IMG/VR virus record: IMGVR_UViG_3300030107_003486
Location: 1 to 21,664 of that record
Reading direction: 5' to 3' (one strand)
DNA length: 21,664 bases
Source of the DNA: a virus
Part shown: in pieces, positions 131 through 18,096 of the stretch
How the letters are laid out: every line of letters starts with the position of its first letter
Numbering within the stretch: the first letter of the stretch is position 1
Notes under the pieces: generated by a model
What the model was told of the DNA's origin: nothing
The model's database searches: none
Seen by the model: the letters and a program-made list of their open reading frames with translations, nothing else
Position numbers and translations under genes: made by a program

Positions 131-144
131 CTGCACTTGTGTAG
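131..144 (+). promoter_or_regulatory. Late control element copy 1 (candidate phage promoter or RNA hairpin)
   Basis: CTGCACTTGTGTAG lies 72 bases before the capsid start. The same 14 bases recur exactly at 14842-14855 before the tail fibre gene, and a variant lies at 1294-1307 before tail tube A. Each copy can fold as a 5-bp stem (CTGCA with TGTAG, one G-T pair) around a 4-base loop. Placement before the gp10-, gp11- and gp17-like genes resembles the late promoters of T7. Function is inferred, since no promoter consensus for this phage is known to me. Confidence 0.6.
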
Positions 145-179
145 TTTATTAAGCCTCTTGCGGGAGACACCTTAATAAA
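145..179 (+). other. Stem-loop in the capsid gene leader
   Basis: TTTATTAAG (145-153) is perfectly complementary to CTTAATAAA (171-179), and a short inner CTC/GAG pairing (155-157 with 164-166) is possible. It begins at the base after control element copy 1 and no T-run follows it, so it is not a terminator. A transcript starting near the element would carry this hairpin at its 5' end, where it could protect the abundant capsid mRNA or serve as a processing site. The role is inferred. Confidence 0.55.
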
Positions 180-216
180 TGAAATAAGTAATTAACGCTC
201 GCAACTAGAAAATTCA

Positions 217-1224
217 ATGGCTAATGCCAGTTTAGACCGTTTAGGTCAGGTCAAAGGCGCAAACGCCGTAGACGCTCTCTTCCTGAAATTAGGAATTAGT
301 GAGCTACTTTCAGCCTTCGAGCGTACTTGCGTATTCAAAGGAAAAGTAAAAGAACGTGCCATCAAAGGTGGCAAGAGCGCGGCATTTCCCGTGTCGGGTC
401 GAAGTGCAGCAGCGTACCACGTTCCGGGGCAACCGATCTTAGGGGCAACAAACTCACCCGGAGATCGTAACGAGCAAGTCATCAACCTTGATGGATTGCT
501 TATTGCCGATGAGGTTATCTACGATTTAGATAATCTTATGAACTACTACGAAACAAGACAGGATGTAACTAATCAGTTAGGTCTTGCTCTTGCTTACGAG
601 TGGGACAAGAGAGCAGCTAGGGTTCTTTATGCAGCAGCAAAGACAACAACTGAGCCGCTTGCTAAGACCATTAACGCTAACCGCACAGGTCATTCAGCGA
701 CCTTATCTGCTGGTTATGCAGCCGCTACTAAGAACGCCAAGGGTGATGAGCTAATTGAAAAGATTAGTTCTATCAAAGTTGAGATGAAGAAAGCTGATGT
801 TCCAACAGAGAACTTAGCTTGTGTTGTTGGCCCTGATGAATACGATTATCTACTTGATTCCACTAGAGCAATCAACACTGACTTCAACAGTGGTGGTGGC
901 GAGAATGGGTCATTTGCTGGAGGTCGTGTATTACGTGTCAAAGGCATAAATGTATATGAGTCAAATCATGTTCAACAATCCGCATACACGAATGGTACTT
1001 ACGACAAGAACACTGCTTACGAGCAGAACTTGACTAAGAACAGAGCGATCATCTTCCATAAAGATGCGATTGGATGCCTCACATTAAAGAGTCCTTCTTT
1101 ACAGGTAACTCCTGAAGGCAGCTCGTTCAATGTGATGTACCAAGCTAGTCTTATGGTGGCTAGGATGGCTATTGGTATGAATGTACTACGTCCAGAGTGT
1201 GCTGGTGTTATCGAAATACCTTAA
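217..1224 (+). CDS. Major capsid protein (T7 gp10-like)
   Basis: This protein forms the icosahedral shell. At 335 aa it is close to T7 gp10A (about 345 aa). Stretches align well with what I know of T7 gp10: GKSAAFPVSGRSAAAYHVPG near residues 52-71, an INLDGLLIADEVIYDLDNLM segment followed by NYYETR near 89-114, and IGMNVLRPECAGVIEIP at the C-terminus. The family has the HK97 capsid fold. The ATG at 217 has only a weak purine stretch upstream (CTAGAAAA). A structured 111-base leader precedes it and a strong terminator follows 13 bases after the stop, so it can be expressed partly as its own unit. No slippery site for a T7-type 10B frameshift product is seen near the stop. Confidence 0.96.
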   Translation: MANASLDRLGQVKGANAVDALFLKLGISELLSAFERTCVFKGKVKERAIKGGKSAAFPVSGRSAAAYHVPGQPILGATNSPGDRNEQVINLDGLLIADEVIYDLDNLMNYYETRQDVTNQLGLALAYEWDKRAARVLYAAAKTTTEPLAKTINANRTGHSATLSAGYAAATKNAKGDELIEKISSIKVEMKKADVPTENLACVVGPDEYDYLLDSTRAINTDFNSGGGENGSFAGGRVLRVKGINVYESNHVQQSAYTNGTYDKNTAYEQNLTKNRAIIFHKDAIGCLTLKSPSLQVTPEGSSFNVMYQASLMVARMAIGMNVLRPECAGVIEIP

Positions 1225-1237
1225 CAACTAAAACAAC

Positions 1238-1272
1238 AAGCCCCTGTTCCCCATCGGCGGGGGCTTTTTTTC
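1238..1272 (+). terminator. Rho-independent terminator after the capsid gene
   Basis: AAGCCCC (1238-1244) pairs with GGGGCTT (1260-1266) around a loop of about 15 bases, and the T-run continues to about 1271. It lies between the capsid and tail tube A genes, the same place as the late terminator Tphi in T7 between genes 10 and 11. It would lower readthrough from capsid into tail genes, so capsid mRNA is made in excess. Confidence 0.9.
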
Positions 1273-1293
1273 TTTTCTTCAGTTAAACTAAGT

Positions 1294-1307
1294 CTGCATA
1301 CGTGCAG
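1294..1307 (+). promoter_or_regulatory. Late control element copy 2 (variant, perfect 5-bp stem)
   Basis: CTGCATACGTGCAG matches copies 1 and 3 at 10 of 14 positions. The stem CTGCA/TGCAG is perfect here because the G-T pair of the other copies is replaced by G-C. The loop differs (TACG instead of CTTG). TAAG precedes it with one base between, as in copy 3. It lies 22 bases after the terminator and ends exactly 6 bases before the ATG at 1314, so it could restart transcription for the tail genes. Confidence 0.5.
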
Positions 1308-1313
1308 TTAGTT

Positions 1314-1973
1314 ATGGGATCAGCCAATCAATCTGTCACGCCGGGCAGAACAACACTATTAGAAGCAGTTAATATTTGCCTCCAAAACATAGGTGAACAA
1401 CCTGTAAACAGTCTTGAGAATGAGCAAATAGCAGAAGCAGCAATGGCTGAAAGAACCATCCTTGAGTTCTTTAAAGAAGGTCAAACTAGAGGATGGAGTT
1501 GGAACACAGAATATGAATATGAATTTACAAAGAATACAGATGATCAGTTTGTCGTACCAAGCAATCTTGTTTCTTTCTCTCCCGATCAATATGATTGGAA
1601 TGGACGTTTTATTTTAAGAGGACAGAAGGTTTACGACAAAGAAGAAAGAACATATACCATCCCTGATACCGTTACAGAAAAGATTAAAGCTGATGTGATT
1701 TGGTTCCTTCCTTGGAATGAATGTCCAGAGGCTTATAACAGATGGACAACAATACGATCAGCGAGAGTATTTAGTGATCGAGTTTTAGCTGATGATTCTA
1801 TTTTTAAATACACTGCTGTAGATGAACAAGCAGCACTTGTTGAACTACAAAGAGTTGAATTAGATCAAGCACAAGCCAACTCCTTAACAGGTGGGCAGAA
1901 CATTAATCCATTCCCTACCTTCTCCCCTGCCTTTGGATTACTAGGAAGAAACAGGAGTTATCTACGTGGCTAA
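1314..1973 (+). CDS. Tail tube protein A / adaptor (T7 gp11-like)
   Basis: This protein is likely the gp11-type tail tubular protein that forms the ring joining portal to nozzle. The N-terminal TTLLEAVNICLQNIGEQPVNSLEN is typical of that family, and the 219 aa length is slightly above T7 gp11 (196 aa). Order between capsid and tail tube B agrees. Two in-frame starts are possible: GTG at 1302 and ATG at 1314. I chose 1314 because GTG 1302 lies inside the inverted-repeat control element, and because the element-to-start spacing is then 6 bases, the same as for the fibre gene. Neither start has a Shine-Dalgarno. The 3' end overlaps tail tube B by 8 bases. Confidence 0.88.
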   Translation: MGSANQSVTPGRTTLLEAVNICLQNIGEQPVNSLENEQIAEAAMAERTILEFFKEGQTRGWSWNTEYEYEFTKNTDDQFVVPSNLVSFSPDQYDWNGRFILRGQKVYDKEERTYTIPDTVTEKIKADVIWFLPWNECPEAYNRWTTIRSARVFSDRVLADDSIFKYTAVDEQAALVELQRVELDQAQANSLTGGQNINPFPTFSPAFGLLGRNRSYLRG

Positions 1974-4476
1974 TTTAGTAAGCTCAACAATTCCTAATCT
2001 TATACAGGGTGCGTCATTACAGCCTGACGCTTCAAGAGATCCAAGTCAGGGTGACGAACAGATTAATGGAATGAGTTCTCTTGCCGAGGGCTTAAGAAAG
2101 AGAGAAGGAACTGAATGTATTAAAAAAGTTTCAACGTCATCTTTAGGTGATGTATATATGCACCAGATCTTGCGTGACTCTGGTGAAAAGTATTTAGTTG
2201 TTATTGGCAAAACATCAATCAAGGTCTTTGATTTAGATGGCAATGAAAAAACAGTCAATGTTGCGACTAATGCTTTTAACTATTTGTCATCTGTTGTCAG
2301 CGCAAAGACAGACATAAGAGCAGCGACCATTGCTGACTACACATTCATTAGCAATATCAAAACAAGCCCAGCATTAACAAGCGATACAGCACCCGCTACG
2401 GCAAGACCTACAACGCATGAAGCACTGATATGGATTAAGGCCGCCAATTATGGTCAGCAACTAAAAGTTAGTGTCAACGGAACACAAGCCACAGTTCAAA
2501 CAGCAGTAGCCCCTGTCATTGTTAGTGGAGGATCAACAACAGAGAATAGGATCAATACAGCAGATCTAGCCGAAGCAGTTAAGACAGGTTTAGGAACGAT
2601 CTCAGGTGTAACGATTACAAGGAATAAGAGTGTTCTCCACTTTACTTCTAACAGTGCAATAACCATTTCAGCGCAGGATGCTAGAGCCAATGCAGATATA
2701 ACTTGTATCACTTCAGAAGTACAAGTATTTACAGAGCTTCCGACTGTTGCACCGTCTGGGTATCAAATCAAAATCCTTGGTGATCCATCAAATGCTTTTG
2801 ATAATTACCATGTTGAATTTGTTCCAAGAACAGGAGCCGGAACATTTGGAGAAGGTTCATGGCAAGAGTGCGTTAGCCCCGGAGAGAAATACAAAATAGA
2901 TAAGGACACCATGCCTCATCTATTAGTCAGACTTGCTAATGGTCAGTTCTACTTTGGCCCGGCTGACGGAACAACTCAGGGAGGAACAGTTATTCCAACG
3001 TGGGGTGAAAGAACTTGTGGTGATACCGATAGCGCACCAAATCCAAGCTTCATTGGATTTCCTATTCAAGACGTATTTATCTATAAGAACAGATTAGGAT
3101 TCTTAGCTGATGAAAATATTATTTTAAGTCGAGCCAAATCTTTCTTTGATTTCTTCCCAGAGACAGTAACAACATTACTTGATTCTGATCCTATTGATCT
3201 ACAAGCAAGTAATACAAAGGTGTCAATACTTAGGTATGCCATACCATATCAGGATGAATTGATTATATTTTCTGATCAAATTCAATTTAGATTTAATGCA
3301 GCAGAAACAATATTAACTCCATCTACTGCTGTTATTACTGTATTAACTCAGTATGAAGTAGACATCAATTGCCGACCTTTACCTGTAGCTGGCACGATTG
3401 TTTTTGCACAAGCCAATGGTGTTTGGAGTAGTTTCCGTGAGTTCTCTGTTAAAGGTGCAGGTTCAGCTTTAGTTGCTGATGCTTCAGATTTAACCAGTTA
3501 CGTTAATAGCTATATTCCATCAGATGTTTTTAAATTAACTTCTAACGATACAGGTAATTCTTGGTTTGCTTTATCAAGTAAGACAGGTTTCACAGATCGA
3601 GTATATGTTTATAAATACTTCTATAGAAATACAGGATCAGGAGCAGAGAGAGCGCAAAGTAGCTGGTCTTATTGGCAGTTAAATGGTGCAGATACAATCT
3701 TGCAGGTCTTATGTGTAGAGGAAACTCTTTACTTACTTGCTCAATATGGCAATGATGTTTGGTTAGAAAAGATGCCTGTTGCTGACAGGCTTAGTGACGT
3801 ATCCCCTAGCCCATATCCATTCTTATTAGATAGAAAGGTTTCTACGACCACTGACACTCCAGCAGCAATAAGAGTATCAGCCGGAACTTATAACAACGCA
3901 ACCAAGAAAACAACTTGGACATTGCCTTATACCATCGTCAAAGAAACTCAGGCATGGTCAGGCTTTAACACAACGACAGATGGTGCTGTTTATTTAGGAA
4001 CTGCTAGTAGTGGAACTTCAATAACAGCAGAGGGTAACTGGTCTACAACACCGATCTATTTTGGAGAAGTATTTGATTTCACTTATCGCTTTACCAAGTT
4101 CAAACTATATAAAGAGATTGGTGGAGGAAAAGCACCGGGCAACGTAGAGAGAACGCAAGTAAGACATGCGAAGTTAAGGTATCACCAGACTAATTATTTC
4201 GAGATACACGTTAAAGCAGAGAGAAGAGATACGGCTGTCTATAAGTTTGATGGAACGATCTTAAGAGTAAGAGATTCAGTATTAGGTAATGTCCTACCTG
4301 CTACTGGTTATGACCGAGAAAATGATCGTTTCTTTGAAGGAGTCTTCCGAATACCGATCAACTCAAAAGGTGAAAACTGTGTAGTCGAGATTCATAACAA
4401 AACAATTCACCCTTGTAAATTCTCTACTTGTGAATGGGTGGGATTAATTACATCACAAGCGAGGTCAATGCAATGA
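1966..4476 (+). CDS. Tail tube protein B / nozzle (T7 gp12-like)
   Basis: This 836-aa protein (T7 gp12 is about 794 aa) should form the nozzle of the short tail. Diagnostic matches to gp12 include the N-terminal IPNLIQGASLQPDASRDPSQ, then GLRKREGTE, and the segment near residues 370-415 with KNRLGFLADENIILSRAKSF, FFPETV and DSDPIDL. The start is GTG at 1966, overlapping the tail tube A stop. AGGAG at 1953-1957 lies 8 bases upstream and supports this start. It ends in an ATGA overlap with the next gene, so translation is probably coupled. Confidence 0.94.
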   Translation: MANLVSSTIPNLIQGASLQPDASRDPSQGDEQINGMSSLAEGLRKREGTECIKKVSTSSLGDVYMHQILRDSGEKYLVVIGKTSIKVFDLDGNEKTVNVATNAFNYLSSVVSAKTDIRAATIADYTFISNIKTSPALTSDTAPATARPTTHEALIWIKAANYGQQLKVSVNGTQATVQTAVAPVIVSGGSTTENRINTADLAEAVKTGLGTISGVTITRNKSVLHFTSNSAITISAQDARANADITCITSEVQVFTELPTVAPSGYQIKILGDPSNAFDNYHVEFVPRTGAGTFGEGSWQECVSPGEKYKIDKDTMPHLLVRLANGQFYFGPADGTTQGGTVIPTWGERTCGDTDSAPNPSFIGFPIQDVFIYKNRLGFLADENIILSRAKSFFDFFPETVTTLLDSDPIDLQASNTKVSILRYAIPYQDELIIFSDQIQFRFNAAETILTPSTAVITVLTQYEVDINCRPLPVAGTIVFAQANGVWSSFREFSVKGAGSALVADASDLTSYVNSYIPSDVFKLTSNDTGNSWFALSSKTGFTDRVYVYKYFYRNTGSGAERAQSSWSYWQLNGADTILQVLCVEETLYLLAQYGNDVWLEKMPVADRLSDVSPSPYPFLLDRKVSTTTDTPAAIRVSAGTYNNATKKTTWTLPYTIVKETQAWSGFNTTTDGAVYLGTASSGTSITAEGNWSTTPIYFGEVFDFTYRFTKFKLYKEIGGGKAPGNVERTQVRHAKLRYHQTNYFEIHVKAERRDTAVYKFDGTILRVRDSVLGNVLPATGYDRENDRFFEGVFRIPINSKGENCVVEIHNKTIHPCKFSTCEWVGLITSQARSMQ

Positions 4477-4919
4477 GATGGATAGACCCAACATTTGCAC
4501 ATGTGGAGTATATAGCGGATAATTTAAGAGAACAAGACAGATTAGAAGTGTTTTATAGCCACGGTGTTACAGGATGGGAATCAGTGATTAGTAGCTGGAA
4601 CTATAGTGAAATACGTCATGGGATAGAAGGGGATAATGGTAAGCCAGTTGCGCTATGTGGAGTAAATAACAGTATTATTTGGTTACTTGGAACTGATGAA
4701 TTGTTTTCTTCCAATAGCCATAGGAGACAATTTATTAGAGGTGGCAAAATATGGATTAATGAATTACTTACAGGTGGAGAACAAATGCTGCATAATTGGG
4801 CTTTAAGCTCAAATGTTTCAAGTCTGAGATGGCTAAAGCATTTGGGATTTGAAATAGATCCACCTCAACCAATGGGTAAATCTTGCCAGCTATTTAGTCA
4901 TTTCTGGAGGAAAGCATAA
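4473..4919 (+). CDS. gp13-like virion-associated protein
   Basis: 148 aa, beginning MRWIDPTFAHVEYIADNLRE, a pattern (aromatic and charged start, then an ALR-like helix 'IADNLREQDRLEV') that resembles T7 gp13 (138 aa) and the related phage family with a GNAT-like fold. T7 gp13 is needed for virion morphogenesis and is reported in virions. A start at 4434 in the same frame is possible, but ATG 4473 is better: it overlaps the tail tube B stop as ATGA, and GAGG (4461-4464) lies 8 bases upstream. It overlaps the next gene by one base (TAATG). The family assignment comes from order, length and N-terminal pattern, and no catalytic role should be assumed. Confidence 0.75.
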   Translation: MRWIDPTFAHVEYIADNLREQDRLEVFYSHGVTGWESVISSWNYSEIRHGIEGDNGKPVALCGVNNSIIWLLGTDELFSSNSHRRQFIRGGKIWINELLTGGEQMLHNWALSSNVSSLRWLKHLGFEIDPPQPMGKSCQLFSHFWRKA

Positions 4920-5758
4920 TGGTTGCGATTACTGGAGCAATGGCATTAGGGGCAGCCCAAGCAGGTCTTGGTGTTGCTCAGTCCATAGCAGGATATAAAG
5001 CACAAAAGCAGGAATACTTAAACCAAACTGCTTTTCAGGATGCACAAAATGAATTTGCTTCTTGGCAAGCAGGATTCAATAGCAAAATACAGGATGCAAA
5101 TAAACAATATCAATACTGGACTGAAACAGTTCAATACAATCAAAACTTTGCTTATACAAATGCGCTGAGAAATGTTGAATTAACAAAAGCCATACGACAA
5201 GCAGAAGTAGTTGAACAAACAAGGGCAGCAGCAGGAGCTAGTTATATTCAAGATTCTGATGCAATTAATGATGCTTATCAACAAGCTTCGATGCAAGAAG
5301 CTGTTGCTACTCAGCAATACAGGTGGAGATCATTACAAGCGAGAGCATCAGTACAAGCAATGGAAGGTGAAGGCAAGTCGATTGATCGGATTATTAATGA
5401 TTATGCAAGGCAACAGGGAGACTATGAATCATTACAAGCCATCAATGCAGCGTCTAGGACAAGACAATTCACAAGGCAACAAGCAGCGCAAGTTGCTCAA
5501 TACATCAGCAGATGGAATAGCCAACAGTTCTATGAAGAACAGCCATTTATAGAACCACTAGCACCTTTCGCACCATTACCGACTTTGATTACTCCTGCGG
5601 GGCCAAGCATGAGAGGAGGAGGCCCATCAATGGGTGCAGCACTTCTTAATGCTGGTAGTGCAATTCTTGGTGGCATTGACACTGGAATCAAAACAGCATC
5701 AAGACTAAATGCGATGAAGAAACCTAATTCACCTACTGGCCCCGGAACTTCTAATTAA
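4919..5758 (+). CDS. Internal virion / ejection protein (T7 gp14-like)
   Basis: 279 aa, longer than T7 gp14 (196 aa). The N-terminus is small-residue rich and hydrophobic (MVAITGAMALGAAQAGLGVA, continuing QSIAG), followed by a long Gln/Ala-rich helical region to about residue 205 and a Pro/Gly-rich tail. In T7, gp14 leaves the capsid first and forms a channel in the outer membrane. The hydrophobic N-terminus and helical body fit that role, and the position before the larger ejection proteins agrees. Start support is strong: GGAGG at 4906-4910 lies 8 bases before ATG 4919, with TAATG coupling to the gene before. Confidence 0.82.
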   Translation: MVAITGAMALGAAQAGLGVAQSIAGYKAQKQEYLNQTAFQDAQNEFASWQAGFNSKIQDANKQYQYWTETVQYNQNFAYTNALRNVELTKAIRQAEVVEQTRAAAGASYIQDSDAINDAYQQASMQEAVATQQYRWRSLQARASVQAMEGEGKSIDRIINDYARQQGDYESLQAINAASRTRQFTRQQAAQVAQYISRWNSQQFYEEQPFIEPLAPFAPLPTLITPAGPSMRGGGPSMGAALLNAGSAILGGIDTGIKTASRLNAMKKPNSPTGPGTSN

Positions 5759-5760
5759 TC

Positions 5761-8190
5761 ATGGCTAATAAAAAACAACAACTTCCACAGGGGCAAATAA
5801 CACCAGTAGCCCGTCCTCTTGGTTCATTTATTCAACCCGGACAACAACAAACAGCAGGTGCAGCAGCACCGCCTAATATTCCTAATCCAAGCAAGATAGC
5901 AACACTGCAAAAGGCAGGAGTTGGAAGTGTAAAAGGCTATAACAAATTTGAACAATTAAGTAATGCTCTTGGGAATTTCACCCCAACTGCTATCAGTGCA
6001 GCACAGACAATTTATGAAGACTATGCAAAGAGAACAATAGAAGATGAATACTATAAGACCTTAAAAAATGAAGATGTAAAAGCAAGACTAAGCCTACAAA
6101 TTCAGGCAGAGAAAAGTGCTGCTGGTACTAATCAAAAGATAGATGAATTAAATAAAGTTGATCCTATTGCTGCTCTACTTCTTGATGAAGCTAATCCTTG
6201 GAAATTAATAGGTAGACGTAGAGCATTAGCTCAATATGCAGCAGCAGAAATAGATAATGCTTTTGATAATGATTTTTCTGGAAACAAAGAAGCATTAAGC
6301 ATTATAAAACCGGGTAGTGGTGAACTAACACAGAGAAGAGTTGAAATACAAAAAGCAGTACAAGATAAATATGGATTCACAGGAGATGAACCTGAGTATC
6401 TTTATTATGTTGTCCCGAAAGAAAATAAAGCCTTTGATGACTATTCAGATAAGCACGAAAAGTTATATCACCAACAAATAAAAATATCCTCAAAAGAAAC
6501 TTCTGTAGCTGCACTTACTTTTCAAATAGATGGTCTGATCAAAGATGGAATTGTTATTGGCCCAACTGGAGAATATTATAAAGCTGGTAGTCCTGAATTT
6601 AATCAAATAGGTGGAAGACAATTAACAACAGAATTAGATAAAACTCTATCGTTATTCGCAGGTAAAGATAAACAAGATGTTTTAGAGAGTATTACAGAGG
6701 AACTTGGAGGCTATGTAGGAACAGGTTTAATAGAAGAAATAAGACTAGGAAGTTCAACAACCCCTTATGACAAAAGACCTAGATATGGTGATGTGTATCC
6801 CGGCACGTTATTAGATATTCAATCAAAGAATCTTGATCGACAACAAAAAATAATTAATGGTAAAAATAAAAAGTTTGAAGCAAGAATAACTGAATTATTC
6901 AATGAATTAGTTTTTCCTTTTGCTGTTGGAAGCGATGAGCGTAGGGATGCTATTAAACAGATAGACGAACAGATGAGAGCAGAAGGATTTTTTGGTGCAA
7001 GAGAAATTTTAAAAAACTTAAATGATACAGATATTGATTATCAAGATGATTTTGACAAACAACCAGAGGGACAAACACAAGTAGAGGAAGCTGAATTTAT
7101 AGATGGGATCAATCCTAATTCCTTTGAAAATCAAGAAAGCATCGGGAACTTGTACCAAGAAGCATCAAAACTTGCAAAGAAATATCCAAGTGATTTACAG
7201 GATTCAGCAAGGCTAAGAATATTTAATGCGATAAAAGCTAAAAGGAATGACTTTGAAAAGCTACCAAGCGGAACAACAACAAGAATTAATAATGCTGTTA
7301 AGCAATATTTAAGCCATCCTAAAATTGATGGATTAGAAGGAGGTCAAAATTTCTTACGGTTTAAACAAAATTATGGATTAACTAATGACATGGCCTCCTC
7401 AGTTTTATCAGGTAGTCAGAAATTTAGTGAATTAGCCATTAAGGTTAAGGATGAAATTACGATTGCTACTTCAGATGCTTATGCTGCTTGGAGAAATGAT
7501 CCTAAGAATGAAGGAAAGATATTAAGCCCATCTGAAGAGATTAAAATAGAAAGGACGGCTATTTCTGACTTTAATAAAAGTGAAGATTTTAGAACAATTC
7601 TTGCAGAGACTTTCGATCTAAGCACAAAAAATGGTGTTGAAGACGCTAATGCTGTTTTAAGTTCTTATGCAGGAAAGGACGCACAGAAATTTGAAAAGAT
7701 ACTGACAGAAGAGGAACTAAAACAAAAAGACTTTGATGATTTTGCAGCAGGTAAGCATGGATTACCTGTAGGGAAAGATGCCCCTGATGCTGGGGATGCA
7801 ATGGATGGAGGTGGGAGTCTTCCTAAAGGACAAGAAAGAGATATATCTGATTCCAAAGTAAAAACTTACAGAAGAACAGCTTTACTAAAAGGGAGAACAA
7901 TTTATACCGATTTAAACAACATAAAGAATGGACAACCATTAACAGGTAACACTTTAGATATTTCTAATAGAGCAAGGATTACTCCAGAAAAATTATTGTT
8001 AGAGCAATTAAAGTTTTATCCTTCTCTTGATCCAAGTGGAGAAATAGAAACTTATTTAAAACAGAAAGTATCTGAACAAAAAAATAATGGTTTGATTTCT
8101 CAAGCATGGATGAATGGCAATAATCATTGGGCGGCTGAAATGATATTTGGCGCACCCTTATTTCCTATAGCCAAAATCCTTCCTAACTAA
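5761..8190 (+). CDS. Internal virion / ejection protein (gp15-like by position)
   Basis: 809 aa (T7 gp15 is 747 aa). The N-terminus is Gln/Pro-rich (residues 1-45), followed by a mostly helical, strongly charged body without signal peptide or membrane segment. Position directly after the gp14-like gene and length point to gp15, which with gp16 builds the ejected periplasmic tube in T7. I see no enzyme motif. A run near residues 660-695 is Gly/Asp-rich and probably disordered. The ATG lies 2 bases after the preceding stop with no clear Shine-Dalgarno, so translation probably depends on the gene before. Assignment rests on order and size. Confidence 0.75.
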   Translation: MANKKQQLPQGQITPVARPLGSFIQPGQQQTAGAAAPPNIPNPSKIATLQKAGVGSVKGYNKFEQLSNALGNFTPTAISAAQTIYEDYAKRTIEDEYYKTLKNEDVKARLSLQIQAEKSAAGTNQKIDELNKVDPIAALLLDEANPWKLIGRRRALAQYAAAEIDNAFDNDFSGNKEALSIIKPGSGELTQRRVEIQKAVQDKYGFTGDEPEYLYYVVPKENKAFDDYSDKHEKLYHQQIKISSKETSVAALTFQIDGLIKDGIVIGPTGEYYKAGSPEFNQIGGRQLTTELDKTLSLFAGKDKQDVLESITEELGGYVGTGLIEEIRLGSSTTPYDKRPRYGDVYPGTLLDIQSKNLDRQQKIINGKNKKFEARITELFNELVFPFAVGSDERRDAIKQIDEQMRAEGFFGAREILKNLNDTDIDYQDDFDKQPEGQTQVEEAEFIDGINPNSFENQESIGNLYQEASKLAKKYPSDLQDSARLRIFNAIKAKRNDFEKLPSGTTTRINNAVKQYLSHPKIDGLEGGQNFLRFKQNYGLTNDMASSVLSGSQKFSELAIKVKDEITIATSDAYAAWRNDPKNEGKILSPSEEIKIERTAISDFNKSEDFRTILAETFDLSTKNGVEDANAVLSSYAGKDAQKFEKILTEEELKQKDFDDFAAGKHGLPVGKDAPDAGDAMDGGGSLPKGQERDISDSKVKTYRRTALLKGRTIYTDLNNIKNGQPLTGNTLDISNRARITPEKLLLEQLKFYPSLDPSGEIETYLKQKVSEQKNNGLISQAWMNGNNHWAAEMIFGAPLFPIAKILPN

Positions 8191-8200
8191 GAGATTTATC

Positions 8201-11200
8201 ATGCCTTTTAACTTACCTGAACTTAATGATGAGCAGATTGATTCTCTTCAACCTCAACAGATAAGTAATACACAAAGAAGACAAGGAATAGAACTTGAGA
8301 TGGAAGATAGTGCTGGGAAATTAAAACCTCTTGTCCAGTTATTTAATACGTTAGGTTCAAAAGGATTTGGAACAGGATTAGTTCAGGGGCCGTGGAACGC
8401 TGCAACAGATTTAACAAATGCAATAGGAGATAAAATCCAAAGGAAAGAAATAGATACAGGTGATAATTATTTGAAGATGTCAGATGAAACTGCAAGGTGG
8501 ATTAGTCCAACAGAGTCACCAGTATTCGGAAACTTCTTACAAGAGGAAGGATATACACAAGCAGACGTAGCGAGCAAAAGGGTAGGAGAAGTTGTTGGTG
8601 CTGAATATGTAGGTGCAGTTTCAGGATCTTCAGTATTAAAACAAATACAAAGAGCCGCTTGGGTAAAGACTTTTCTTCAAGGATTACATCAAACTAGAAG
8701 GTTAAATACAGGCTTAAAAAGTGCCGTCCAAGTAGATAAAGCAAGAAGATGGGCCAAGAGAGGAGAATTCACAACAAGAGGAATGTTTTACGCTGGTACG
8801 GCTTCTCTCTTCTTAGATGAATCTTTAGAGAAAGGAGGGAACTTATCAAACTTCACAGAGGATGTAATTAATAAATACTTTGAGACAGATCTAAATCTAC
8901 CTTTAACTGTTGATGAAACTGATGACTACATAACAGCACGAATAAAAGGAACTTTCACAGACATGAGTATTGTTCCAATTTTAAGGACGATAGGCATACC
9001 ACTAGAAGGAATGTATGACCTCGTTGGTGATTCATTTGCACCAGTCAAAAGAGCAACAGTAGAAGTTGTAGATGAAGTTGCTAATGCACCTGTTCCAACG
9101 TATCAAAATCTTTTAGATAAAGGAATTGATGGACTTCCTAAAGGTGTACCCGGAGGAGCCATCGTTAAACATGACTCAGCTATTAGTAGAGCAATAGATG
9201 AAAATCTTTTAAATAAACAAGTTGTAGAACAACGTGATTGGTTAAAAAGAAATGGATTAGTAGAAGTCGGAGAGAATGGTCAACTAGAACTTACTTATCC
9301 CGGTGCTATTGATCAAAATATCAAAACTCAATTTGATGTAATTAGAAGACAAAGGGGTGAATTAATTAGAACAGCGACACAGACAGGAGAGGACGTATCA
9401 AAACAACTTGACGAGTTAGACAAGTTAGAAGATGAACTAACAGAACAAAGTCTTGCGGGTAATCCTGCTCAAATGCCATCAAGGATTATTGAAGAGCAGC
9501 TTGAATTACCAGATGCAAGAGTAGAAATGGATACTCTTCTAGCGCAGCTTAATGAAATATCTGATCTAGAGCTTAGAAAGATTCATAGCGAAGTTAATGC
9601 ACCAGCAATTAGGGCGCAAAGAACAGAAGCAATCAATCAAGGTGCTGCACGATTAAAGGAAATAGAAACAAGAATTGAACAAATTAACCAAAAGATAGAA
9701 GACGGAAGTTACACACCAAGAGGAGGAAAAAGAGAACTTAATAAAGCACAAAAAGCATTAACTCTTGCCACTCAAGAATTATCAGTTTTACAAGAATCAG
9801 GTAAGAAGATACAGCCATTAGTAGGTGATCAGTTAGAGCTTGCTTTAAAGAATGAATTAACTCCAATTACTGAGACTGTTGAGAAGCCAAAACTATCTTG
9901 GTTTAACAAACCATCAGCAGCAGATATTAAAGCCGGGGAGGATGGTGTCAATAGGATTATTAATTCACTAGATAAGGCATTAGGAACAGAATGGAAAGGC
10001 GGCCCCATTGATGCCTTAAGGCTTACAGGAGATGTAATTGGTGTAGGTAGATCTATTGCAGAAGAGACAGTACAGAAAGCAATTAGAGATATAAATAGAG
10101 TTAATTCTCAAAGAAAAATTGCTGATGCAAAAGTAGAAAGAATAGAAGGAAAGAAAATAAAAAAAGCAGAAGTTAAAACTGATGATGTACCACCAACGCT
10201 TGACGAATATAAAAATGACTTAATGCAACTTGGTAGAGATGAATTAAGAAGCATCTCATCTCCAAGCGAGAACCCAGAGATAGCAGCAATTGTTAAAAAT
10301 AGAACTGGTAGAAGAGTATGGCAAGCAAAGAAAGAAGATATTGTTAATGCTTTTGTTGAGTATTACCAAAAGACAGGTTTTTATGGCCGTCCATTATATC
10401 CCGGCGAAGAAGTTCAATCAACACTGCCAATTAGAAAAGCAAATATAGAAACCACTTCACCATTAGCAAAAATCACAGATGCAGAGGGTATTGAAAGCTT
10501 GCAGCCTGTAGGTGAATATCAGCCAAGGGGTATGAGTGCTGTAGATAGAGATCGCTTAAAAGCTGAAATCATTCAAAGCGCAGTTAGGAATGGAGAAGTT
10601 CAACCACCTTCATCTCCATTACCAAAAAGACCAGTAACAACTTTTGTCCAAGATGATTTTATTGATGAGCTTTTAACAGATGAGACTGGACAACTCTCAA
10701 TGCTTTATAACTCTGATCTTTTACCTACATACGAGGCAGGCGGCAAAAACGCTATGGCTCTCATAGATGAAATGAGATTGAGATATGAATATCAAACATT
10801 AGATGCAGAGTCATTAAGAGCGCAAAAGGAAGCTTTTTATAAGCAACAAGGATGGGACAAACTACCTTTTGAAGAGAAGAAAAGATTAGGCATATTAAAT
10901 AAGTGGGAATACGCTTTGAAGGGAGAAGAAGTTATAGATGGGAAGCTTATAAATGTCACCCCAACACTGCAAGGGATTAAGGAACAACAACAAAAGTTCC
11001 TTGACATGTTTGGAGAGCCAAAGCCAAAAGTAGAACCAACAAAAGCCAAGAAAGGAAAAACACCTACAAAGCCGAAACCACCGAAGAAACCACCAGAGAA
11101 AGAAGTCTTTACTAAAGAGGGAATTGTCCCAGAGAAAACAAAAAAAGAGATGGATAAAGTTACAGAGAAGAAAGGAACAATTGGAACCAAACAAGAAATC

Positions 11201-11305
11201 AATATTAATCAGCAGTCCTTAAACGATCTGGACGCTGCTATCAAGCGACAAGAAAAAATTGTTGCTGAAGCCAACAAAAAAGCAGATGGAGGTATCTGTC
11301 AATGA
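8201..11305 (+). CDS. Large internal virion / ejection protein (gp16 region, first of two)
   Basis: 1034 aa. No motif of the N-terminal transglycosylase of T7 gp16 is visible. Features in order: a region with several Gly/Ala-rich segments (about 40-330, including GEVVGAEYVGAVSGSS); charged helices likely to form coiled coils (about 375-420 and 480-535); and a Lys/Pro-rich low-complexity stretch near 945-975 (KPPKKPPEK and similar) followed by a charged C-terminus. The stop overlaps the next start (ATGA at 11302-11305). Order and size suggest an ejection protein carried inside the capsid. Whether it matches part of gp16 or is extra to it cannot be settled by eye. Confidence 0.68.
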   Translation: MPFNLPELNDEQIDSLQPQQISNTQRRQGIELEMEDSAGKLKPLVQLFNTLGSKGFGTGLVQGPWNAATDLTNAIGDKIQRKEIDTGDNYLKMSDETARWISPTESPVFGNFLQEEGYTQADVASKRVGEVVGAEYVGAVSGSSVLKQIQRAAWVKTFLQGLHQTRRLNTGLKSAVQVDKARRWAKRGEFTTRGMFYAGTASLFLDESLEKGGNLSNFTEDVINKYFETDLNLPLTVDETDDYITARIKGTFTDMSIVPILRTIGIPLEGMYDLVGDSFAPVKRATVEVVDEVANAPVPTYQNLLDKGIDGLPKGVPGGAIVKHDSAISRAIDENLLNKQVVEQRDWLKRNGLVEVGENGQLELTYPGAIDQNIKTQFDVIRRQRGELIRTATQTGEDVSKQLDELDKLEDELTEQSLAGNPAQMPSRIIEEQLELPDARVEMDTLLAQLNEISDLELRKIHSEVNAPAIRAQRTEAINQGAARLKEIETRIEQINQKIEDGSYTPRGGKRELNKAQKALTLATQELSVLQESGKKIQPLVGDQLELALKNELTPITETVEKPKLSWFNKPSAADIKAGEDGVNRIINSLDKALGTEWKGGPIDALRLTGDVIGVGRSIAEETVQKAIRDINRVNSQRKIADAKVERIEGKKIKKAEVKTDDVPPTLDEYKNDLMQLGRDELRSISSPSENPEIAAIVKNRTGRRVWQAKKEDIVNAFVEYYQKTGFYGRPLYPGEEVQSTLPIRKANIETTSPLAKITDAEGIESLQPVGEYQPRGMSAVDRDRLKAEIIQSAVRNGEVQPPSSPLPKRPVTTFVQDDFIDELLTDETGQLSMLYNSDLLPTYEAGGKNAMALIDEMRLRYEYQTLDAESLRAQKEAFYKQQGWDKLPFEEKKRLGILNKWEYALKGEEVIDGKLINVTPTLQGIKEQQQKFLDMFGEPKPKVEPTKAKKGKTPTKPKPPKKPPEKEVFTKEGIVPEKTKKEMDKVTEKKGTIGTKQEININQQSLNDLDAAIKRQEKIVAEANKKADGGICQ

Positions 11306-14300
11306 CTGATTGCAACAACCTAGACGAACAAGCTAGACAAGCTCAGGAAGAGCTAGAAAATCTCAAAAGGATGAGAGCAAAAATGCAGGCTAATTTGCAG
11401 CATTTGAAGCAACCAAAAATAAGTAAAGAGAAATGGCAAAGAAAGATATTGACAAAGATTGATGGAACAGAGGTCAGTGTTGATCCTGTTGAATGGGCTA
11501 GGAAAGCAGAAGACGATTTAAGACAGTTAGAAGAGGGAAAAGTCCAAGAACTTGTTTCTGGTCTTATTGAAAATAAAGAGAAGCCATTAGGTCGAACTGG
11601 TCAATCTATTAACTACGGAAGAATCCCACCAACTAAAGCAAACGTAGCGGCTGTCTTTAATCTTATTGCACAGAAATGGCAGAAGACAGAAGGTGGAATC
11701 AACCACATGCGACCTTTTACTCAAGAGGTTGCGACTCATCATTTAATTGATTTTGCAAAAAGAACAGCAAAAGATCCAAGGTTGGCAGTTGAAAGGCTGA
11801 CAAAAGATTTAAGCAAGATAGGTGACTTAGCAATCAATACTTATTCGGCTGCAAAATATAGATGGGAAAGCGCAGTAGCTTATGCAGATGCGTTAGAAGA
11901 TGCAGCAAACATCATTGAAGAGACTGGGGTTTTGCCTGATATTAATTTATTAGAATTATCAAATATTGGTAAATGGGCGCATACATTTGAACAGCTAGAT
12001 ACTTTCACAAGAAGAAAAGTTGGACAAGCCTTGCAGTCATATCAAAAGGATATGGATCTTGATTTAGATTTAGTAGACTTCACAAAACAATCAAGTGATT
12101 TAACACTAGACGATATAACGGGAGACAGCTTGTTAGCCCAAGTTATAGATCATGTTGATAAAGGAGATCATCGAAAACTTAGATCATTAGCTATCTCGAA
12201 AAGGATTAGCGGATTAAGAGAAGTAGAGCTAAATGAGCCTGTGATCTATCAGCACATGAGAAATATGCTGCATTACAAGAAAGCAAATATGTTTAGTTCA
12301 ATCTGGTCTTGGGGATTAAGAAATCCAGTATCAGGCATTATGACCAGTGCTGATTTCTATATGAGAGATATTTTACAAACAAGTCTCTCAGAGGGATTTG
12401 GGGCTGCTAATGCACTGTTTGGATATACCAACAGAAAGATGGTGGAAGGTTGGAGTGATGCTTGGAATAACGCTAGAGGTGCTTGGAGAACTGGAAGGCA
12501 ACGAATGGGTGGTAGGACTGTTAAAGAGACAAGTCCAGAGTTATTAGAGTCTGCAAAATTAGCTAATGATAACGCTATCAATCAAGCATGGGATTTGTTG
12601 TTTACTGATACAGGAACAAAGGTATTAAATAATTACAAGGTTAATTATCCAAAAGGGTTAAAACTTCCCGGCAAACATCAGTCAATACAAGAAAACATTG
12701 CTACATATTGGGCTTGGCAAACTTTATTTAACGGTTCAGTACGAAATTTAACAGGAAGAGTTGGAGAGAAATTAGCTGGAAATGATGCTTGGTATTTCCC
12801 AGAATTTAGAGCTTTATCATCAGTAGATGAAGGTGTAAGAACGATGGCAGGAATACAGGCCATACATTCAGAAGCCTTTGCTCAGGGTATTCAAGTTGCA
12901 AGAGGTACTTTATTACCAAGCAAAAGTTGGCTTGATCGACTTAAAGGAGGAACAGAAGGAGGAGGCTTAATGGGGCCAAGCATGGCGAAGAAAAGTGAAA
13001 GTGTTTTTGCACAAGAATATGCAGATGAAGCTGTTAAGAATTGGTTGTTTAGCGGAAAGATGACTGATGAAGATCTAAGAAAATTCAGACAAAAAGAAGT
13101 AGGTATGCCAGCAGGACAGAATATGACTGACGATGAAATTAGGATCAAAGTTTTTAATGACTTAAATGGTGTTCCTAATCAAGCAGACATGTTTGGTGCG
13201 TTAGCAAAAGATAGAGGAGACAAAGTAACTTTCACAGGAAAATTTGACGCTAAAGGGCCACTAGGAAAAGTTGGACAAGCGTTTAACTTTGCGAGACAAG
13301 ATCCCATTGTTGGCGGTCAAATGCCAGTATTCACAACAATGGTTAAAGGTCTTGGCTGGGCTATAAGCAAAGATATTTACTTTCAAACTTTCAAACAAGC
13401 TGCTGTTGAACTAAATAATTTATCAGGAAAGGGTACGGGTTTAACCAAGAGACAACTTGCACAAGAAAGGGCAGATGTTGTTAGTTCGATAGCAATAGCA
13501 ACGATGATGTGGATGTTAGCCGAGGCAGGGGTTACAACTGGGCCACCACCAACTGACCCAAGAGAAAGAGAGAACTGGTTAAGACATAACGTCCCATTTT
13601 CAATTTCTATTGGTGCGTTTCTTGGGAAGGCAGGAATTGGCAAAGCACAAGAAGCCACTGAAGAACTAGGAACAAAAATTAAAAAAATATCAGCCAGATC
13701 AATTGAATTTTTTGATATTGCAATGACAATGGGACATCAAGCCCAATACATAAAAGATGGCTTACTTCCTCCTGAAATTGCAAAGGATACTCAACCCATG
13801 TTTATTGATGCCTATAGACAATTACTAAAGAGTAAGAATGGATTAAAGACAATTATGGAAGGAATAGATTTAATACAAAACGTAGATGGCAACCATAATG
13901 CGGCACGATATTTTGCGGCACAAAATACAGGGAGTTTCCCTTTTAGTGGATTAGTTGGAAACTTTGATAGAGCATTTGAAGCTGAACAAGCAGGAGAGAA
14001 ATTTGTAACAAGAAGGCTACTCAGTAACGATGAAATAGTTGCTTTATCTAAAGATCCAACACATGCAAAGTTGATGAAGATAACAGATACAATTAATAAA
14101 TCAATGCAAGATTACGTTGGATTTACTGTAAAAGATATTCCCTTCTTAGATGATGTATTTACTCAACCAACTGAAAAAGATTCATTAGGTATAGATACAA
14201 AAGCGACAATGTTAGGGTTTGGTGGTGATAGAGCAATGCCCTTTATTCAACTCGAAAAAGATAATTCAAAATTAGCAAGATGGATGACAAGACATGGGAT

Positions 14301-14805
14301 AACTTTTAAACCTAATCCAGATGGCAAAATTACAATTGGAGAAAAAGATTATAAAAAAACAATTCAATTAACTAGAGATGAAGAAGGAGAATACAGAGCT
14401 TTTGCTTATAGCATTAAAGGAGAGTTGCCTATTGCTGTTGTACTAGGAAAGACTAGATCTTTTCATCCTGAAATCGGCTCAATGGATCAGATTGTAAGAG
14501 GTTCAACTTTAGTAGAAGCATTAAATAAATTACGTCAAAGCCCAAGATATAATGATGCGCTAGAAGGAGATCCACAAAGTCCAAGTGAAGCAAAAAATAG
14601 ATTTTATACAAGAGGAGAAAGGACACAAATGGATGAAGGGTATTTGTTGAGTCCAGTTGAATGGGTTTATAATTACTACTACGAACAAGCAAAACAACAA
14701 CTAATTAGAACAAATGAAGATGTAAAAAATAGATACTCGTTATTGCTAGGAGAGAAAGGCAAGCAAAGACTAGAAAGAGGAGAGTTTTATAGGAACCGTC
14801 TTTAA
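11302..14805 (+). CDS. Large internal virion / ejection protein (gp16 region, second of two)
   Basis: 1167 aa. It begins with a likely coiled coil (LDEQARQAQEELENLKRMRA), followed by a long helical protein with many Trp and aromatic residues. A hydrophobic stretch at about 724-743 (ADVVSSIAIATMMWMLAEAG) could contact or cross a membrane, which would suit a protein ejected into the host envelope. The C-terminal part contains many charged residues. The start overlaps the previous stop as ATGA, and GGAGGT at 11288-11293 is a strong Shine-Dalgarno 8 bases upstream. It is the last gene before the fibre, which is where gp16 ends in T7. No lysozyme or transglycosylase motif is seen. Confidence 0.7.
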   Translation: MTDCNNLDEQARQAQEELENLKRMRAKMQANLQHLKQPKISKEKWQRKILTKIDGTEVSVDPVEWARKAEDDLRQLEEGKVQELVSGLIENKEKPLGRTGQSINYGRIPPTKANVAAVFNLIAQKWQKTEGGINHMRPFTQEVATHHLIDFAKRTAKDPRLAVERLTKDLSKIGDLAINTYSAAKYRWESAVAYADALEDAANIIEETGVLPDINLLELSNIGKWAHTFEQLDTFTRRKVGQALQSYQKDMDLDLDLVDFTKQSSDLTLDDITGDSLLAQVIDHVDKGDHRKLRSLAISKRISGLREVELNEPVIYQHMRNMLHYKKANMFSSIWSWGLRNPVSGIMTSADFYMRDILQTSLSEGFGAANALFGYTNRKMVEGWSDAWNNARGAWRTGRQRMGGRTVKETSPELLESAKLANDNAINQAWDLLFTDTGTKVLNNYKVNYPKGLKLPGKHQSIQENIATYWAWQTLFNGSVRNLTGRVGEKLAGNDAWYFPEFRALSSVDEGVRTMAGIQAIHSEAFAQGIQVARGTLLPSKSWLDRLKGGTEGGGLMGPSMAKKSESVFAQEYADEAVKNWLFSGKMTDEDLRKFRQKEVGMPAGQNMTDDEIRIKVFNDLNGVPNQADMFGALAKDRGDKVTFTGKFDAKGPLGKVGQAFNFARQDPIVGGQMPVFTTMVKGLGWAISKDIYFQTFKQAAVELNNLSGKGTGLTKRQLAQERADVVSSIAIATMMWMLAEAGVTTGPPPTDPRERENWLRHNVPFSISIGAFLGKAGIGKAQEATEELGTKIKKISARSIEFFDIAMTMGHQAQYIKDGLLPPEIAKDTQPMFIDAYRQLLKSKNGLKTIMEGIDLIQNVDGNHNAARYFAAQNTGSFPFSGLVGNFDRAFEAEQAGEKFVTRRLLSNDEIVALSKDPTHAKLMKITDTINKSMQDYVGFTVKDIPFLDDVFTQPTEKDSLGIDTKATMLGFGGDRAMPFIQLEKDNSKLARWMTRHGITFKPNPDGKITIGEKDYKKTIQLTRDEEGEYRAFAYSIKGELPIAVVLGKTRSFHPEIGSMDQIVRGSTLVEALNKLRQSPRYNDALEGDPQSPSEAKNRFYTRGERTQMDEGYLLSPVEWVYNYYYEQAKQQLIRTNEDVKNRYSLLLGEKGKQRLERGEFYRNRL

Positions 14806-14841
14806 TAATTGGAATCAGACTAGAAATCCGTTAATATAAGA

Positions 14842-14855
14842 CTGCACTTGTGTAG
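14842..14855 (+). promoter_or_regulatory. Late control element copy 3, before the tail fibre gene
   Basis: CTGCACTTGTGTAG is identical to copy 1 at 131-144 and ends exactly 6 bases before the GTG start at 14862, the same spacing as copy 2 to ATG 1314. It lies in the 56-base gap between the last ejection gene and the fibre, the place of the phi17 promoter in T7. TAAG precedes it with one base between. The promoter role is inferred; the exact 14-base repeat in two intergenic gaps is seen directly. Confidence 0.62.
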
Positions 14856-14861: not shown

Positions 14862-17800
14862 GTGCCACAGTCATACCAAGAACATAATGGTGATAATTCC
14901 ACCCACACATTTACTATTGGGTTCGGATCAGGAACTACTAAATATTTAAAACGAGAACATATCAAGCTTTATTACGGTAGAGATCGTGTCGCTGGAACTC
15001 AAACAAATACCTTAACTTTAGATACTGACTATGTATATATAAGTGATTTAGTTATTAAATTAATTGGATCTGCGCTCAACACAGGTGTAACAGTAGGAGA
15101 TCCATACCCATTGGCGAGTGGAAGAAAGCTAACGATTGAAAGAGATACACCACAGGATACGTTGCTTGTTCCTTGGGCTGATGGATCAAACTTAACGAAA
15201 GAAGCATTAGAGACTTCTAACCTACAGGTACTATTTGGACAACAAGAAGAAGCTGATACTGGATTATTAAACTCTGCAAAAGCTGTTGCTGCTGAGACTG
15301 CATCTACTACAGCAACTAATGATGTGGCTGTCTTAACGGCAAACTATTTCAAGAGAGATGGAACCCTCGGAATGACAGGGAATCTTCAGTTAGGTACTAA
15401 TAGGATAACAGGAGTAGGCGATCCAACTGGGACGCAAGATGTAGTAACAAAAGCATACCTAGAACGTACTGGAAGTATTACTTCTACTCAAATTGAAAAT
15501 GGAACGATAGTGGATGCTGATGTTAATACTAGTGCAGCAATATCAGGATCAAAGTTGCAGGCTTCTTCTGGGTCTAATGCAGGAAGCATGTCTTCTGCTA
15601 ATTTTACAAAATTGGCGGGTATAGACACCGGAGCCAAAGACGACCAAACAGGTGCAGAAATCAAGGCAGCTTATGAAGCCGAATCAAACACCAACGCTTA
15701 CACAGATGCAGAGAAGACAAAGCTCGCATCTTGTGAGAGCAATGCAAAGGATGATTTAACTGCCTCAGAAATAAAGTCTCTTTACGAAAGTAATAGCAAT
15801 ACTAATGCAATTACCGATACAGAGAAAACAAATATTGGAACGATTACCAATAAGCAACCACTTGATTCTGAGCTAACAACTCTTTCAGGGATGCAAGCTG
15901 CTACGGCTTCAAAGCTTGCTAGTGGTACTGCTCTTACTTCAGACATTGCAGACCTTAACCAGATAGATGGATTAACAAAGCAGACAACAATCTCTGATAG
16001 TGATGCTTCATTTCCTACGTCTGGTGCAGTTGTTGATTATGTCGCTGCACAGATTGCACCTATTGGTGGTCTTGAAGTTATAGCTGATGATGCCTCGTTT
16101 CCAAATACTCAACCTGATGCAGGTGTAGTTATTAGTATTGCTGATGCTGGTGGATTAGTAGTTGATGGTTCTGGTGAAAGTTCTACTGCCAGAACAGTCG
16201 GCGGTTCAACAGTAACTATCAATGGCATCAACTCTAGTTACAACAGTTCTACTGTTACCTCTGGTATTGGTTTCCTTGTAAGTTCGACTGGATCAGGACA
16301 GATATATAACTTCCATAAATCAGTCATAAGAGATCAAGATATTCTTAGTATCAGTACCGATATAAATGACTTTGCTAATAGGTATCGTGTAGAAAATACA
16401 TTACCTGCTGCCAATAGTTCAACAAACCATGATGGTGATTTGGTCTGGGCTAGAGATGTTGGGAAGATGTATGTCTACAGTGGAGATTATAATGGTACTC
16501 CAGTAGGAAGTTTTGGTGAAGTTCAGTCCATTGGTAGTTTCTATATATCAACTTTAAGTCCTGCATTTAATGGAACCCTTCAAGATTTCACAATTACAAA
16601 TGCACCTTCTAATGCAGAACAAATCCTTTTAAGTATTAATGGTGTAATACAGAAACCAAACGCAGGAACCTCGACACCATCAGAAGGGTTTGCGTTAAGT
16701 GGCAGCACCGTAAAACTTGGTGCTGCACCAGCTAGTACGGATACTTATTTTGCAGTTGTTATTGGATCAACAGTAAATATTGGAACTCCAAGTGACAACA
16801 CAGTAGACACAGACATATTGATGAGTGGAGCCGTAACTGATGCAAAGGTCAATGCTTCTGCTGCGATAGCAGGAACAAAAATATCTCCTGATTTCGGATC
16901 GCAAAATATAGTTACAACTGGAACTTTAGGTAGTGGAGATATAACAGTATCATCTACAAAACCAAGAATTGATTTAATTGATACAAACAACAATAGCGAT
17001 TTTTATTTTATTAATGATGATGGCACGTTTGCTATTAAAGATAGTACTAATGATGCGGGCAGACTTGTTATCGCTTCAAATGGTCAAACGACTATTTATT
17101 CAAACTGTGATTTCGCTGCTGGTGTTGACGTAACTGGAGACATCACAGTTTCAGGAACAGTAGACGGAGTTGATATTGCAGCGTTAAATACAACTGTCGG
17201 AACTAAGGCGGTATTAACAGGCTCAACCGATAACACCATTTGTACAGTTACAGGTGCAAACACTATTCAAGGTGAGGCAAATCTTACCTTTGATGGAACA
17301 TCATTAACAGTAGGTGATGCTTTTACTGCACATACAGGAGCAGATAATTTAATTATTGGAGAAGATACCAATGGTGTGAACTGTGGGATGACTATCCTTA
17401 ACCATACGGGTTCAGATGGACGTATTTGTTTTGCTGATTCAGGTGATACTGATGGAGGAATGATTAAATATGTCCATAATGGCGATTTTATGCAGTTTAT
17501 TGCTGGTGGAGATGAAAGAGTACAGGTTAAATCAGATGGAAACCTATCAATAACTGACGGAGATCTAGTTGTAGCAAACGGTCACGGTATTGACTTTAGT
17601 GCTACGAGTAATGGTACAGGTTCAAACCAAGCAGAACTTCTTTCAGATTATGAAAGTGGGGTTTGGACTCCAGTACTAAAGAGTGGAAGCAACACGATTA
17701 CTTATGATACTGGGTCTAATACTCGTTTTACATATACAAAAATAGGAAATGTATGTCATATCTTCTTTACTTTAGATAATAGAACTACTTCTGGAACAAC

Positions 17801-18053
17801 AGGGTCAGGTTTTGATGTTGAGGGTTTACCATTTACTTCTGCTGGTGGTAGACAATCTAATGGAACTGGTGTTTGGTATGGATCAGGTTTAAGATTAAGT
17901 GCTTGGCCTGTTGTAACACATATCCAATCAGGAAACTCAGAACTTAGATTTTATGCTAAAGATTCTGCTGCTGGAAATTATTATCAAGTCGATTTATCTA
18001 ATGTAGGAGCAAACTCCTATTTATTTTTCACTCTTACATACGAGATAACTTAG
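14862..18053 (+). CDS. Tail fibre protein (T7 gp17-like N-terminus, long shaft, receptor tip)
   Basis: 1063 aa, the host-recognition fibre. Residues 1-140 resemble the T7 gp17 attachment domain: a beta-rich start, then the pattern TIERDTPQDTLLVPWADGSN followed by LTKEALETSNLQ. Next come two tandem 37-residue repeats (250-323), repeated 'DADVNTSAAISGSK' type segments (about 216-230 and 659-673), and a shaft with fibre motifs such as TKPRIDLIDTNNNSDFYF. The C-terminal tip follows 'LLSDYESGVWTPV' (about residue 925) and carries a YTKIGN motif. The start is GTG, 6 bases after a control element, with no Shine-Dalgarno. Blocks at 17265-17298, 17586-17605 and 18047-18076 are repeated in and after the second fibre gene. 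Confidence 0.92.
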   Translation: MPQSYQEHNGDNSTHTFTIGFGSGTTKYLKREHIKLYYGRDRVAGTQTNTLTLDTDYVYISDLVIKLIGSALNTGVTVGDPYPLASGRKLTIERDTPQDTLLVPWADGSNLTKEALETSNLQVLFGQQEEADTGLLNSAKAVAAETASTTATNDVAVLTANYFKRDGTLGMTGNLQLGTNRITGVGDPTGTQDVVTKAYLERTGSITSTQIENGTIVDADVNTSAAISGSKLQASSGSNAGSMSSANFTKLAGIDTGAKDDQTGAEIKAAYEAESNTNAYTDAEKTKLASCESNAKDDLTASEIKSLYESNSNTNAITDTEKTNIGTITNKQPLDSELTTLSGMQAATASKLASGTALTSDIADLNQIDGLTKQTTISDSDASFPTSGAVVDYVAAQIAPIGGLEVIADDASFPNTQPDAGVVISIADAGGLVVDGSGESSTARTVGGSTVTINGINSSYNSSTVTSGIGFLVSSTGSGQIYNFHKSVIRDQDILSISTDINDFANRYRVENTLPAANSSTNHDGDLVWARDVGKMYVYSGDYNGTPVGSFGEVQSIGSFYISTLSPAFNGTLQDFTITNAPSNAEQILLSINGVIQKPNAGTSTPSEGFALSGSTVKLGAAPASTDTYFAVVIGSTVNIGTPSDNTVDTDILMSGAVTDAKVNASAAIAGTKISPDFGSQNIVTTGTLGSGDITVSSTKPRIDLIDTNNNSDFYFINDDGTFAIKDSTNDAGRLVIASNGQTTIYSNCDFAAGVDVTGDITVSGTVDGVDIAALNTTVGTKAVLTGSTDNTICTVTGANTIQGEANLTFDGTSLTVGDAFTAHTGADNLIIGEDTNGVNCGMTILNHTGSDGRICFADSGDTDGGMIKYVHNGDFMQFIAGGDERVQVKSDGNLSITDGDLVVANGHGIDFSATSNGTGSNQAELLSDYESGVWTPVLKSGSNTITYDTGSNTRFTYTKIGNVCHIFFTLDNRTTSGTTGSGFDVEGLPFTSAGGRQSNGTGVWYGSGLRLSAWPVVTHIQSGNSELRFYAKDSAAGNYYQVDLSNVGANSYLFFTLTYEIT
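15609..15830 (+). repeat. Two in-frame 37-residue tandem repeats in the fibre shaft
   Basis: Residues 250-286 and 287-323 of the fibre follow the same pattern: K-L-A, then AKDD-T, EIK, YE-SNTNA, TD-EKT. The protein repeat is clear while the DNA copies have diverged, so the duplication is old. Such repeats usually form spaced structural units and let fibre length vary by unequal recombination. Confidence 0.8.
17265..17298 (+). repeat. Fibre homology block A, copy 1 (34 bp)
   Basis: A 34-base stretch inside the main fibre gene, encoding IQGEANLTFDG, is identical to 18593-18626 in the second fibre gene. The frame is the same in both, so recombination here would join the two genes in frame. Confidence 0.9.
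17586..17605 (+). repeat. Fibre homology block B, copy 1 (20 bp)
   Basis: GGTATTGACTTTAGTGCTAC, encoding GIDFSAT, is identical to 19085-19104 and is in the same frame. It lies just before the segment 'LLSDYE' that starts the variable C-terminal tip. Confidence 0.88.
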
Positions 18054-18076: not shown

Positions 18077-18096
18077 CGCACCATTTAAACCTATTT

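Follow-up and report, generated by a model that had tools for sequence, protein, structure and literature searches.

The 21.7 kb stretch of DNA analyzed here (the window) is a viral fragment from a T7-like cyanophage whose capsid protein shares 78.5% identity with its counterpart in Synechococcus phage S-SRP02; no near-identical DNA was found in the phage collection searched. The pattern CTGCAN4TGYAG matches the plus strand of the window only at 131-144, 1294-1307, and 14842-14855. These are the three exact palindrome copies described in an earlier note on this sequence, and each was confirmed to lie in an intergenic gap, before the genes for the major capsid protein, tail tube A, and the tail fiber (PHROG 267, 446, and 21412, respectively). 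The features of the locus are as follows.

131..144, plus strand: copy B, CTGCACTTGTGTAG; putative late promoter core of the major capsid gene (exact match, with orthologous sites in relatives)
144, plus strand: last base of copy B; predicted +1
145..179, plus strand: capsid mRNA leader hairpin (model match of 38 bits, covariation, and RNA fold from base 144)
217..1224, plus strand: major capsid protein, gp10-like (PHROG 267, E 5e-60)
1238..1271, plus strand: terminator-like hairpin and T run, AAGCCCC...GGGGGCTTTTTTT, recognized from the sequence between the capsid gene and copy C
1284..1289, plus strand: TAAACT box (YANNNT), 4 nt 5' of copy C
1294..1307, plus strand: copy C, CTGCATACGTGCAG; putative late promoter core of tail tube A
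1314..1973, plus strand: tail tube A, gp11-like (PHROG 446; start taken from homologs)
14832..14837, plus strand: TAATAT box, 4 nt 5' of copy E
14842..14855, plus strand: copy E, CTGCACTTGTGTAG; putative late promoter core of the fiber gene
14862..18053, plus strand: tail fiber gene, gp17-like (PHROG 21412, 13481, and 2710, tail fiber)

The number of matches expected by chance in the window is 0.13, with no more than 2 in any one of 100 dinucleotide shuffles. Because intergenic gaps make up 1.9% of the window, the probability that all three copies fall in gaps by chance is approximately 6e-6. The start of tail tube A was assigned by homology to the ATG at 1314; the start given in the list of open reading frames, 1302, falls within the palindrome. 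The GTG start of the fiber gene is 6 nt 3' of copy E. A near-identical segment, TTAGACCGTTAGCAAGTCT(C/T)TAAACTA, appears at 18051-18078 and 19550-19578 after two adjacent fiber-type genes and is possibly a remnant of recombination or of a terminator.

Relatives were collected with a capsid scan, which returned 80 loci, and the complete records of G001-G015 and S-SRP02 were examined. Orthologous capsid, tail-tube-A, and fiber sites in S-SRP02-like phages of 38-66% GC carry CTGCA-N4-TGCAG or a close variant. The A site abuts the start codon of a small gene approximately 4 kb 5' of the capsid gene, upstream of the portal gene. The B site precedes the capsid gene in S-SRP02-like relatives. The C site lies 6-8 nt before tail tube A and directly after a terminator-like hairpin, which in relatives likewise separates it from the capsid gene. 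The E site lies 4-8 nt before the fiber gene, and the F site lies further along the late region. The element is also present before the gene for SSB in several genomes and before p011. A YANNNT box is conserved 4-5 nt upstream of the C and E sites.

In S-SRP02, 7 of the 8 strong plus-strand hits fall in gaps, which constitute 11% of the genome (p 1.5e-6, for a profile to which S-SRP02 itself contributed). The A, B, and C cores of S-SRP02 end at bases 23149, 27254, and 28449, respectively. A reversed control pattern gave 0 matches in the 17 records searched. No clear core was seen before the capsid gene of many S31/S37-like phages, or in the 95 bases preceding the minus-strand terminase gene. 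Sites inside an acetyltransferase-like gene of the GC-rich phages are in-frame with conserved codons (PARVQ) and are probably coincidental. An extended element (TAAACTAAGT-CTGCATAGATGCAA) was observed on the minus strand at 3811-3824 of G001, and also in G002 and G003, 10 nt before a minus-strand gene. Such an orientation is expected of a directional promoter.

The three copies are probably class II/III-type late promoters for the phage's own single-subunit (T7-like) RNA polymerase. This reading had been offered in the earlier note, together with comparisons of gaps against genes and of the same genes across relatives, and both comparisons favor it at the level of sequence: relatives carry the element in front of the same late genes, on the coding strand and in the great majority of cases in gaps. 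The complete relatives encode a T7-like RNA polymerase with 45-67% identity to the S-SRP02 enzyme, in a region outside the one covered by the window. The polymerase would be made early and would bind the 14-bp core, C-T-G-C-A-C-n-n-n-T-G-C-A-[G/A], in double-stranded DNA. The core would span about -13 to +1; melting would take place in its right half, TG[CT]A, and transcription would begin at the final purine. Transcripts would then begin just 5' of the late genes, and the dyad would be a property of the recognition sequence rather than of RNA structure. The predicted -1 is an invariant A, and a purine occupies position 14, the predicted +1, in 125 of 128 sites. The specificity loop of the polymerase differs between phages with CTGCA half-sites and those with CNACG or CATCG half-sites. 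A new start would be needed at the C site, which immediately follows a terminator. A conserved leader hairpin would stand at the start of the capsid transcript, its GCC core 8 nt 3' of the promoter core. Among 144 capsid sites, this spacing, counted from the end of the promoter core to the GCC, is 7-8 nt in 137. The predicted fold of a window RNA begun at base 144 is paired from its first nucleotide. Several points count against these promoters. With +1 at the last base of the core, the tail tube A and fiber mRNAs would have leaders as short as about 6-8 nt, and genes at the A sites would begin at or adjoining +1; both are unusual for phage late genes. Many S31/S37-like phages show no clear core before the capsid gene, and the core differs from the promoters of T7, Syn5, and LUZ100. 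Pairs 3-12 and 5-10 change jointly, mostly between two clades (CTGCA..TGCAG versus CAACG, CATCG, or CTACG..CGTAG), which would also fit the operator of a dimeric protein.

An operator for a dimeric repressor is the main rival explanation of the palindrome. The 14-bp dyad would be bound by a dimeric phage regulator, such as the MarR-like protein encoded next to the integrase, which would repress or activate the late genes at their promoters. The dyad symmetry, the fixed spacing of the half-sites, and the coordinated changes in both halves between clades would all suit such a protein. Complete relatives carry a MarR-like gene whose product has a recognition helix that varies from clade to clade. 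The correlation with clade does not decide between the polymerase and the MarR-like protein, because both differ between clades. The two halves, however, are not equally conserved: A13 never changes, its partner may be A or T, and position 14 holds G or A. No core was seen 5' of the MarR gene in S-SRP02, although an operator of this type would be expected at the regulator's own promoter, and a better operator candidate exists near the genes for MarR, SSB, and p013. We regard this assignment of the palindrome as unlikely. The better candidate consists of CCTAGG-centered palindromes (ACTCCTAGGAGT), which were observed in L084 upstream of 13625 (MarR), 18985 (SSB), and 10024 (p013, minus strand) and in G001 upstream of SSB. 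They often occur as pairs on either side of a -35-like sequence, and they are candidate operators of the phage MarR-like repressor.

The palindrome could instead act after transcription, as a hairpin serving as a 5' stabilizer of mRNA, a processing site, or a translation element. The earlier note had seen selection on pairing in the window copies, where three of four loop bases are changed and one G-T pair becomes G-C, as was verified. Two scans with the tail-tube-A protein (a third gave 4 loci) provided 84 distinct C sites for comparison, collected with a finder that demanded a YANNNT-like box upstream and so left sites without the box uncounted. C4 is kept in 83 of the 84 sites, and G11 and A13 in all 84. 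Clade-level covariation at two pairs and the folding of the 1294 copy in context agree with a hairpin, but the pair 2-13 is broken in 47 of the 84 sites (A.A in 45) around the invariant A13, and the 131 and 14842 copies form no stem in their predicted RNA context. What is kept is therefore the sequence and not the hairpin, and the claim of selection on pairing fails for the palindrome. Among 56 distinct cores, 79.3% of the cells are paired versus 72.8% after shuffling, and pair 2-13 is unpaired in 30; stem pairing is not maintained across orthologs. Among S-SRP02-like phages, the stem is almost unchanged in sequence and the loop is variable, which indicates that the sequence of the palindrome, and not its pairing, is recognized. 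Across relatives the loops do not resemble the stable RNA tetraloops that had been proposed. A functional RNA hairpin formed by the palindrome is thus quite improbable.

Two related ideas were rejected. A comparison of G.U with A.C by strand, as a sign of an RNA stem, gave no useful G.U excess at the tail-tube-A sites of S-SRP02-like phages. A hairpin acting as a spacer that brings a Shine-Dalgarno sequence to the start codon was discarded: GAGG-like bases occur upstream in only some C and E sites and are absent in S31/S37 relatives and at capsid sites.

Host sigma-70-type promoters, in which the YANNNT box would be the -10 element for cyanobacterial RNA polymerase and the palindrome would overlap the start region, are the least probable explanation, since the box, strongly conserved at near-fixed spacing at the C and E sites, is absent at the capsid (B) sites and has no consistent -35 sequence, and its lookalike at the A sites, TAGCCTGAG, is ruled out as a promoter by being the coding end (PPVA-stop) of the upstream gene.

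The claim of conserved pairing is rejected for the palindrome and is transferred to the capsid leader. The RNA hairpin at an mRNA 5' end that the earlier note had envisaged does exist, as a separate element at 145-179 that begins at the predicted +1 of the capsid promoter. Its outer stem, TTAAG/CTTAA, is extended to TTTATTAAG/CTTAATAAA in the window lineage and is followed by an unpaired C, an inner stem (CTCT/GGAG), a TGCG loop, and an ACAC bulge, with 9 pairs. The general form has an outer stem, an invariant unpaired C facing an A-Y-A-M bulge, and an inner stem, often with a UNCG-type loop. Among 74 distinct leaders, 94.7% of the cells are paired versus 78.2% after shuffling, and slid controls reach at most 60.4%. 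Cells changed on both sides with pairing kept number 155 versus 57 after shuffling, and 0 of 500 shuffles reach this value. Fit to the structure was the criterion for choosing the leaders, which biases these figures toward it, and the shuffles ignore relatedness.

In 649 kb searched with a covariance model, 15 matches were obtained at E up to 1, and 14 of them lie just before capsid genes. These 14 include weak matches in Syn5, P-SSP7, P-SCSP1d, and roseophage CRP-118, none of which was used in building the model. The leader was also recognized by eye in S-CBP42 and P-RSP2 and, less complete, in HTVC041P. No match to Rfam 15 was found in the window (E up to 1) or in L084, L127, and L275 (gathering scores). 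Leader hairpins were located at the following positions.

Window: 145-179
L084: 27255-27289
L275 (Syn5): 19888-19922
L277: 20692-20710
L279: 4872-4906
L283: 5930-5952

Because Syn5 carries the leader with no copy of its promoter before the capsid gene, the probable role of the leader is separate from that of the promoter and lies in the processing, stability, or translation of RNA.

On a slight balance of probability, late control in T7-like cyanophages of marine and fresh waters has two shared parts. A dyad-symmetric promoter for their own polymerase would be combined with a new family of capsid leader RNAs that sets the level or stability of the capsid mRNA, and the leader would occur without the palindrome in Syn5, P-SSP7, and the roseophage. 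The literature searched yielded no late promoters for most cyanopodoviruses, and the S-SRP02 genome paper mentions none; an earlier description of the consensus is possible. With a promoter consensus, late transcription in cyanopodoviruses becomes open to experiment, and new polymerase-promoter pairs become available. In the capsid leader, common ocean viruses would have a widespread and previously undescribed RNA element that controls their most abundant protein.

The core matches none of the promoters of T7, Syn5, and LUZ100. As with the class II/III promoters of T7, several short copies precede middle and late genes (SSB, capsid, and fiber) on the coding strand, T7 itself having phi2.5 before SSB. 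The predicted -1 A and +1 purine and the phage-encoded single-subunit polymerase, here in the relatives, are also shared. In contrast, the T7 promoter TAATACGACTCACTATAG is dissimilar in sequence, the core described here is dyad-symmetric, the start is predicted, and the tail tube A and fiber leaders would be very short. No T7-type consensus was found around -17 to +1, where only T(-4), A(-1), G(+1), and a few other positions agree. This mismatch excludes T7-type specificity but not the class, because T7-like polymerases with diverged promoters are known.

The virion RNA polymerase of N4 uses extruded-hairpin promoters in which the loop has 3 nt and includes a defined purine. An inverted repeat of approximately 5 bp at a phage promoter is common to both systems, but the loop described here has 4 nt of variable sequence and the stem often contains mismatches; the perfect 5-7 bp stem and 3-nt loop with a central purine of the N4 type were not found. 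LUZ100 is a T7-like phage with a MarR-like regulator, an integrase, and mapped phage promoters (PMC10134795). Unlike the core, its motif, AATTACCACACAG..TATGGA, has no dyad.

The promoter of the Syn5 RNA polymerase is ATTGGGCACCCGTAA followed by G (PMC3950665). Syn5 resembles the phages described here in having a cyanophage single-subunit polymerase and a short promoter with a partial inverted repeat (GGG-CA-CCC). A single promoter was reported for over 37 kb (PMC3950665); two exact copies were found in the Syn5 record (L275), at 4929 and 44797. The sequences from +1 at these copies can form 5'-terminal hairpins, GCAAGG..CCTTGC and GCAAGAGA..TCTCTTGT, respectively. The CCCGTA of the Syn5 promoter resembles CCCCGTAG, the right half of the element in S31-like phages.
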